DNA from: Leptospirales bacterium
GTDB taxonomy: Bacteria > Spirochaetota > Leptospiria > Leptospirales > Leptospiraceae
Direction of reading: 5' to 3'
Length of the DNA: 64,000 nucleotides
NCBI GenBank assembly: GCA_013297885.1
Contig: JAAFIR010000002.1
Coordinates: forward strand, 62,001-126,000
Both the position numbers and the translations under genes were made by a program. A model generated the notes under the pieces. It did not search any database. It saw only the letters and a program-made list of their open reading frames with translations, and had not been told where the DNA came from. This document shows positions 5,239 through 6,416 of the stretch, piece by piece; positions within the stretch are counted from its first letter, which is position 1, and every line of letters starts with the position of its first letter.

Positions 5239-5413
5239 TTCTGTCTATATAAATCGGGCTTAGTACTAGTTTAAAAATTTTTCTAATTTACACTTTTTTA
5301 AGCTTTATAATTTTTTAATTTGTAAAGATTTTTTTAATAATTTATTTAATTATTTTTAAAGTTATTTTTTTTAATAAAATATTTTTTATTTAAAAAATTA
5401 AATTTTTCGATTC

Positions 5414-5552
5414 TAGCGAACGGGATTGTAGCGTTTCTGAATCCTCTGACTTTAGTCACAGGATTCAGAAGTAGCGAAAAGCCCGATTTTTTCTCACTTG
5501 GACTAAAGTAAAATTATCATTTAATCAAAGTTAAGTGAGAAAAAATTCGCCC
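5414..5552 (+). repeat. Two-hairpin intergenic element, copy B
   Basis: It starts TAGCGAACGGGATTG and ends ATTCGCCC. GGG at 5422-5424 can pair with CCC at 5482-5484. The first hairpin is 5435-5470 (TTCTGAATCCT against AGGATTCAGAA). The second pairs TCTCACTT with AAGTGAGA (about 5492-5540). Its first hairpin is clearly related in sequence to copy D at 39428-39566, which lies in the opposite orientation. The rest of the 5239-5639 gap is A+T-rich with nothing else recognisable. Confidence 0.78.
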
Positions 5553-5639
5553 TAAATCATAAAAAAAAATTAAATTAAAAGTTTGAATTGGTTTAAAATG
5601 TTTTTGTAAAATTTAATCTTTTTAATTAAAATTAACTGA

Positions 5640-6236
5640 TTAAATTTTTAAATTATTATGAATTTGAAATAATGTATCAAATACATTTGATCGAGCTTTT
5701 AAAATTGGTTGTTCCATTTCTTTTAAAAGAGTCAAAGTAGTTCTCTTAGAACTTAATCCAAAAAAATTAATTATTTCTTGTACTGACCAATTAGCTTCTA
5801 TCAAAAAAAATAATAATGTATTTTTTAATATTTTAGGACTTAATTTGTAACCTTGCTTTTTGGAAGCTTCTTTTAAAATTTTTTGTACTGTTCTTTCATG
5901 GATTTTTTCACCTCTTCCTTTTAACAGAAATTCTTCTTGGTTACGATGACAAATTAGTGTTCTTAAATCTGCTAAAATTGGTAAAGGGATATACATAGAA
6001 CGATATAAATAATTTCTTTTATAAATCTTGATTTTATTTTCAATTATATCAATATCTTTAATTTTAAGGTTGATTAACTCTTTTACTGTGATACCTAAAC
6101 CAAGGAGCATTTTGAAAATTAAAAGATGGTTAAAATTTCGTTTTAACAGAATCATTGTTTTGTTGATTTGTTCTTTATTCAAGATATTAATTTTAGTTAA
6201 ATTATTTGTAATTTTATTTTTCATAAACTCCCTCAT
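5640..6236 (-). CDS. Tyrosine-recombinase-fold protein with lost catalytic residues
   Basis: 198 aa, about the size of a phage-integrase/Xer catalytic domain without most of the N-terminal core-binding domain. The fold is followed clearly: LLGLGITVKELINLKIKDID (box I region), YRSMYIPLP, HERTVQKILKEASKKQGY, LSPKILKNT, then IINFFGLSSKRTT. In active enzymes these contain Arg (GLRxSE), HxxR (tpHxLRHT), His (LGH) and Tyr. Here they read GIT, KILK, FGL and no tyrosine, so all the key residues have been replaced. The frame is nonetheless intact. It probably binds DNA without cutting it, or is a decaying integrase. A 28-bp palindromic repeat lies about 125 bases upstream. Confidence 0.7.
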   Translation of the reverse strand: MREFMKNKITNNLTKINILNKEQINKTMILLKRNFNHLLIFKMLLGLGITVKELINLKIKDIDIIENKIKIYKRNYLYRSMYIPLPILADLRTLICHRNQEEFLLKGRGEKIHERTVQKILKEASKKQGYKLSPKILKNTLLFFLIEANWSVQEIINFFGLSSKRTTLTLLKEMEQPILKARSNVFDTLFQIHNNLKI

Positions 6237-6359
6237 ATATTTTTTTTGACTATAGTTTTTCTCTCCATATGCTAATATTTTCTTTAGGAAAAAAAATTTT
6301 TAAAAAAAGTTCGTTTTTTGATAGGAATATGTCACATTTTTCTCCTTTAATATATACTA

Positions 6360-6387
6360 GCTGCCAAAAGTAATTACCCATTACTTT
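6360..6387. repeat. 28-bp palindromic repeat, copy 1
   Basis: Its reverse complement is identical over 28 bases to 57538-57565. Within it AAAGTAAT and ATTACTTT flank a 5-base spacer (GGGTA on the minus strand). With one mismatch the arms extend to 11 bases. Two 11-base arms around a short spacer resemble a tyrosine-recombinase core site, and a recombinase-fold gene starts about 125 bases away on the same strand. It is not followed by a T run, so it does not look like a terminator. Confidence 0.75.
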
Positions 6388-6416
6388 AGGCTAATTGTAT
6401 ATCCAGATTGAATTTT

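Follow-up and report, generated by a model that had tools for sequence, protein, structure and literature searches.

In the DNA analysed here, a stretch of 64,000 nucleotides from a Leptospirales bacterium which we call the window, we find a gene for a tyrosine-recombinase catalytic domain that has lost its catalytic pentad and that has intact relatives in other genomes of the same bacterial family. With moderate confidence we interpret these proteins as a lineage-specific family of former recombinases of the XerA/integron-integrase type which now probably bind DNA as regulators, and we infer that the copy in the window has retained a function, too.

The frame is free of stops over its 198 codons, as an earlier note on this DNA had stated, and at the base composition of the window an open frame of this length has a chance of about 1e-8. 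Translation probably starts at the second ATG (6224-6222), because this codon is preceded by GAGGGAG at the distance of a ribosome-binding site; the protein would then have 194 aa and begin with MKNKITNN. In the 198-aa protein read from the first ATG, a match to PF00589 spans almost the entire domain (E = 1.3e-11; 45 bits, cut-off 27.1). The closest curated family is NCBIfam NF040815 (XerA/integron integrase; E = 1.1e-16), and the sequence match in the PDB is archaeal XerA (4a8e, E = 5e-8). An AlphaFold2 model of the 198-aa protein, built from an eight-sequence alignment (pLDDT 77, pTM 0.72), has XerA 5hxy as its top Foldseek match (E = 2e-7, TM 0.70); Cre, XerH, an integron integrase, the SPbeta-type repressors MrpR/YopR (8a0a and 8bj6) and SroF are also on the list. 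Models of the family reach pLDDT 77-80 and again match XerA best (TM 0.67-0.71), and 8bj6 reappeared in another Foldseek search with the family. By sequence and by fold the protein thus belongs by descent to the tyrosine recombinase/phage integrase superfamily. The integrase catalytic fold assumed in the earlier note is borne out, and the models did not point to an unrelated fold. A chance or shadow reading frame is ruled out by homology, fold and conservation. A phage or plasmid origin is rejected as well, as tblastn against the phage and plasmid collections gave no match.

The protein does not fall into the described subfamilies with which it was compared here. Only about 18 residues lie ahead of the catalytic domain, and a separate N-terminal core-binding domain is absent here as in every other member of the family. 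With 61 bits against a cut-off of 220 for XerA, and as a catalytic domain without a core-binding domain, it is not an equivalog of XerA, XerC or XerD. Nor is it an integron integrase IntI (TIGR02249, 25 bits against 265) or an XerD-like protein of the PRK02436 type, for which no match was listed for the window protein and the best relative reaches 32 bits against 178.

Table 1. Positions of the features discussed in the text (window numbering unless a locus is given)
Feature	Position	Strand	Basis or remark
Dead tyrosine-recombinase catalytic-domain gene	5640..6236	-	Pfam, NCBIfam, AlphaFold/Foldseek, residue mapping
Codon 50, box I Arg to Thr; T/N/Y in relatives	6087..6089	-	alignment
Codons 115-119 (RTVQK), beginning of the helix that corresponds to XerH alpha-K	5880..5894	-	alignment, AlphaFold model, PMC5241119
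Codons 135-138, HxxR box to K-I-L-K; Arg kept and His lost in relatives	5823..5834	-	alignment
Codon 161, third-box (LGH) His to Leu; His kept in 6/6 relatives	5754..5756	-	alignment
Codon 170, nucleophile Tyr to Leu; L/M/R in relatives	5727..5729	-	alignment
AATATGTCACA, one-mismatch variant of the TTATGTC element	6326..6336	+	upstream of window gene; weak
TTATGTC loci in related genomes	L063-L068, L119-L121, L126, L143-L161; window 6326-6336
Inverted repeat GCCAAAAGTAAT-TACCC-ATTACTTTAGGC (AAAGTAAT-TACCC-ATTACTTT), upstream of gene	6363..6391	.	core at 16 places in genome
Interspersed palindromic repeat downstream of gene, core of about 78 bases	5409..5558	.	about 40 copies in genome, several at contig ends

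In the alignment the pentad R-H-R-H-Y corresponds to T50, K135, K138, L161 and L170 of the window protein, that is, none of the five residues of a functional tyrosine recombinase (R-H-R-H/W-Y) is left. The replacements named in the earlier note (box I Arg, HxxR, the later His and the Tyr) are all correct. Its wording that every catalytic residue is replaced holds for the pentad and is overstated beyond it, since the beta-hairpin Lys K74 (the position of XerD K172) and the box I Glu E53 survive, as they do in all seven members of the family. The six relatives likewise lack the box I Arg and the Tyr and have A, S, N or E in place of the HxxR His, so that three pentad positions are replaced in 7/7 members. 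The Arg of HxxR, the His of LGH and the beta-hairpin Lys are retained by all six. Loss of the second Arg and of the third-box His is confined to the window copy. By parsimony, the first Arg, the HxxR His and the Tyr would have been lost before the family diversified; the other two pentad residues would have followed later, in the lineage of the window copy alone.

We searched 60 related genomes for relatives of the window protein. Intact proteins of 188-219 aa are present in six of the seven genomes from the same bacterial family (G001-G006), three of them from the same genus and three from other genera; five of the six are labelled 'Leptospiraceae bacterium' at NCBI. In the seventh (G007, 75% complete) the gene is absent and the STAS locus described below is present. 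The relatives are 28-35% identical to the window protein, and divergence is fast, with 30-40% identity between genera. In a scan of 393 genomes of the phylum with a seven-member profile, in which scores cover first-look candidates only, the members reached 235-307 bits; the others, mostly full-length integrases, did not exceed 114 bits. In a phylogenetic tree the seven members form one clade with 100/100 support, apart from 17 recombinases with intact catalytic boxes (active integrases and Xer proteins from the same and from other genomes).

In the relatives, the gene also keeps a fixed position in the chromosome. Its neighbour downstream, at a distance of about 70-160 nt and on the same strand, is in all six a gene for a STAS-domain protein, and behind this comes a gene for a membrane protein with a weak match to mannosyltransferases. 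In the genus of the window's genome, mreB, mreC and further cluster genes come next. The window's genome has the STAS cluster intact on contig C40 without a recombinase-like gene, and the sole copy found is that in the window. This copy is the most diverged member and has the longest branch of the tree (1.77). A topology which places it within its own genus withstands the test (p-AU 0.25), and a move of the original gene thus fits the data; horizontal replacement instead of relocation is possible. Two repeats bracket the relocated gene (Table 1), and movement mediated by repeats is thus conceivable.

Is the family maintained by selection? For the closest measurable pair, G001 and G002, dN is 0.21, dS is 1.9 and dN/dS is 0.11. 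Two other pairs within the genus have saturated dS and a dN of 0.27-0.31, and pN is smaller than pS in every pair. It is well supported that the family is kept under selection as an intact gene: the relatives are constrained, and neutral evolution of the orthologues, which the earlier note had considered as an outcome, did not emerge. Its suggestion that the gene has been kept and is not simply decaying therefore stands for the family, with intact copies in six genomes across four genera, one clade, a fixed position, a dN/dS of about 0.11 for the closest measurable pair and no stops in any copy. For the copy in the window, which has moved and evolves faster, it is less certain.

The window copy could be a translocated relic of a functional family, newly relaxed and on its way to a pseudogene, which we consider rather unlikely. 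Its place outside the intact STAS cluster and its long branch would fit such a relic. So would the identities to G001, which are 32% for the recombinase-like protein as compared to 50% for the mannosyltransferase-like protein and 85% for the STAS protein of the same genomes, and the additional loss of the second Arg and the third-box His, as relaxed selection might give. The frame, however, is intact, whereas neutral mutation of a family gene to 35% identity introduced 11-14 stops and left no open frame in 300 simulated runs. Residues constant in the six relatives, among them G107-R108 and R115-T116-x-Q118-K119, are kept in the window copy, its codon-position G+C matches the coding pattern, and a good ribosome-binding-site-like sequence precedes its start. 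In pairs with the window copy pN is 0.44-0.48 and pS is 0.60-0.74; dN/dS for its branch is unreliable because dS is saturated or close to saturation. From the intact frame, the kept residues and pN below pS we conclude that decay is unlikely over most of the history of the window copy, and a recently begun relaxation of constraint in its lineage is possible.

If the family is maintained without the chemistry of a recombinase, DNA binding suggests itself as its function. R115, T116, Q118 and K119 are invariant in 7/7 members. They are common in active integrases, and the RTxQK motif is found in many active integrases of about 370 aa in related genomes. In the AlphaFold model the RTxQK helix lies 7-21 residues ahead of the HxxR box, which is the place of helix alpha-K of XerH, and in XerH this helix inserts into the major groove (PMC5241119). 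The family proteins are basic with a pI of 8.9-10.1. DNA binding by the family protein is therefore likely, and we favour putative binding without cutting because the helix is conserved while the chemistry is lost, because of the basic charge and because MrpR and TnsF (see below) are precedents. Most of the base-specific contacts of XerH are made by the N-terminal core-binding domain (PMC5241119), and since the family lacks this main base reader its binding specificity could be poor.

We suggest that the family arose in these steps. The ancestor would have been an active tyrosine recombinase resembling XerA and the integron integrases, and the common ancestor of the family would already have been devoid of the box I Arg, the HxxR His and the nucleophilic Tyr. 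The leftover catalytic fold would then bind DNA without cutting it, by way of the RTxQK helix in the major groove and the basic surface, and the protein would act as a regulator of transcription or of DNA architecture. Judged from position only, it would most likely act close by, on its own promoter and on the two genes behind it for the STAS and the mannosyltransferase-like protein. Parted from the cluster, the window copy would probably work in trans.

A TTATGTC element is found upstream of the gene in 6/6 relatives; the element in the window is weak because no exact copy is present (Table 1). TTATGTC or GACATAA occurs nine times in six upstream regions of 300 nt as compared to eight occurrences in the remaining 72 kb, a 42-fold enrichment and the top of 1077 7-mers, in sequences in which the element had been spotted before the test and with three of the six genomes being close relatives. 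The longer form TATTATGTCTYAT has 19 occurrences in four genomes as compared to 6 for the reversed control. Its orthologous groups lie upstream of or beside xerD, dnaN, the fliP operon and the parB/rep locus, and in the window's genome smc and ftsQ each have one site nearby. The pattern resembles a regulon for replication and division under some other regulator, with the recombinase-like gene as a probable target. The recombinase-like protein as reader of TTATGTC is disfavoured, since the element adjoins conserved replication and division genes, and the protein evolves fast and does not occur in G007. The TTATGTC string does not appear in the literature searched, and the sites of the element in these Leptospiraceae-related genomes suggest an undescribed regulon. 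In view of the neighbouring genes (for STAS and mannosyltransferase-like proteins and, within one genus, mreB-mreC) and of the element shared with dnaN, xerD, smc, ftsQ, fliP and the parB locus, we tentatively raise the possibility, itself still doubtful, that in this Leptospiraceae-related lineage a recombinase catalytic domain devoid of its core-binding domain now serves as a chromosomal regulator, passed on vertically and linked to cell shape and cell cycle.

Several other observations were made in these genomes. A single palindrome TTATGTC-N11-GACATAA is present in the window's genome and is located directly upstream of xerD. One full Xer protein (XerD-like) is evident in each genome of the genus (G000-G003), and G004-G006 have an XerC-like second one; the genus possibly relies on one Xer recombinase alone. 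A search of seven genomes from the bacterial family for an E. coli-like dif core pattern gave no match. Near-identical C-terminal pieces of 59 aa from an integrase of the type with about 370 aa at two contig ends (G000:C51:2-178 and the end of G000:C20; L101, L102) suggest a multicopy element broken by assembly. In the window itself, the response-regulator part at the C-terminus of a sensor kinase is encoded twice in tandem (177-677 and 770-2521) with near-identical protein sequence, a recent duplication.

Tyrosine recombinases act as oligomers with C-terminal exchange. The family protein could accordingly contact protein and not DNA, as a dead partner or decoy which modulates an active recombinase, either XerD or an integrase of about 370 aa. 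Both are present in these genomes as active enzymes, the genus of the window's genome shows no XerC-like second Xer, unlike G004-G006, and in this genus the TTATGTC element precedes both the recombinase-like gene and xerD. However, the family is also present in G004-G006, which have both Xer proteins, its C-terminal tail is conserved neither in length nor in sequence, and its strongest conserved patch is the DNA-facing helix; we regard such a role as unlikely. An active recombinase with unusual catalytic residues is highly improbable in spite of K74 and E53 being retained in all members, as the Tyr is replaced by Leu, Met or Arg, the box I Arg and the HxxR His are gone in 7/7 members and the alignment shows no conserved substitute nucleophile.

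DNA binding without cutting, the reading which we prefer, can be compared with known systems. A chromosomal Xer homologue reported to be inactive in dif recombination is the XerD-like protein of streptococci (NF002685/PRK02436). Its model gives low scores for the relatives of the window protein (E = 2e-4 to 1e-7), well short of the 178-bit cut-off in each case, and XerA matches better. The closest relatives in sequence and fold are the XerA/integron-integrase-like enzymes (NF040815; PDB 5HXY, 4A8E, 2A3V), and many of the integrases of about 370 aa in related genomes share the RTxQK helix motif. These enzymes have the full pentad and a core-binding domain, whereas the Leptospiraceae family has neither. 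More similar in its fate is MrpR/YopR, the master repressor of the Bacillus subtilis prophage SPbeta (PDB 8A0A, 8BJ6; PMC10516654). It has the recombinase fold, has lost the box I Arg and the HxxR His, has kept the catalytic Lys, and is a DNA-binding repressor without recombination activity (PMC10516654). The Leptospiraceae family shares the fold with lost catalytic residues. MrpR, however, has a core-binding domain, about 320 aa and the Tyr and is encoded by a phage. The Leptospiraceae family is reduced to the catalytic domain, is without the Tyr, matches nothing in the phage and plasmid collections and occupies a fixed chromosomal place in the relatives. TnsF of the Tn6022 transposons is likewise an inactivated tyrosine recombinase, co-opted as a selector of DNA targets (PMC10293859), but it is a protein of 498 aa that also contains zinc fingers as well as a core-binding domain, and it acts within the transposon together with TniQ; no transposon partner was seen for the recombinase-like gene. 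MrpR and TnsF, the inactivated tyrosine recombinases which we found described as reused DNA binders, both stem from mobile elements, and the authors of the MrpR study considered that such recruitment may be commoner than anticipated (PMC10516654). The Leptospiraceae family would be an example fixed in the host and cut down to the catalytic domain. The order of its residue losses can be inferred, and it offers a testable path from an enzyme to a binding protein.
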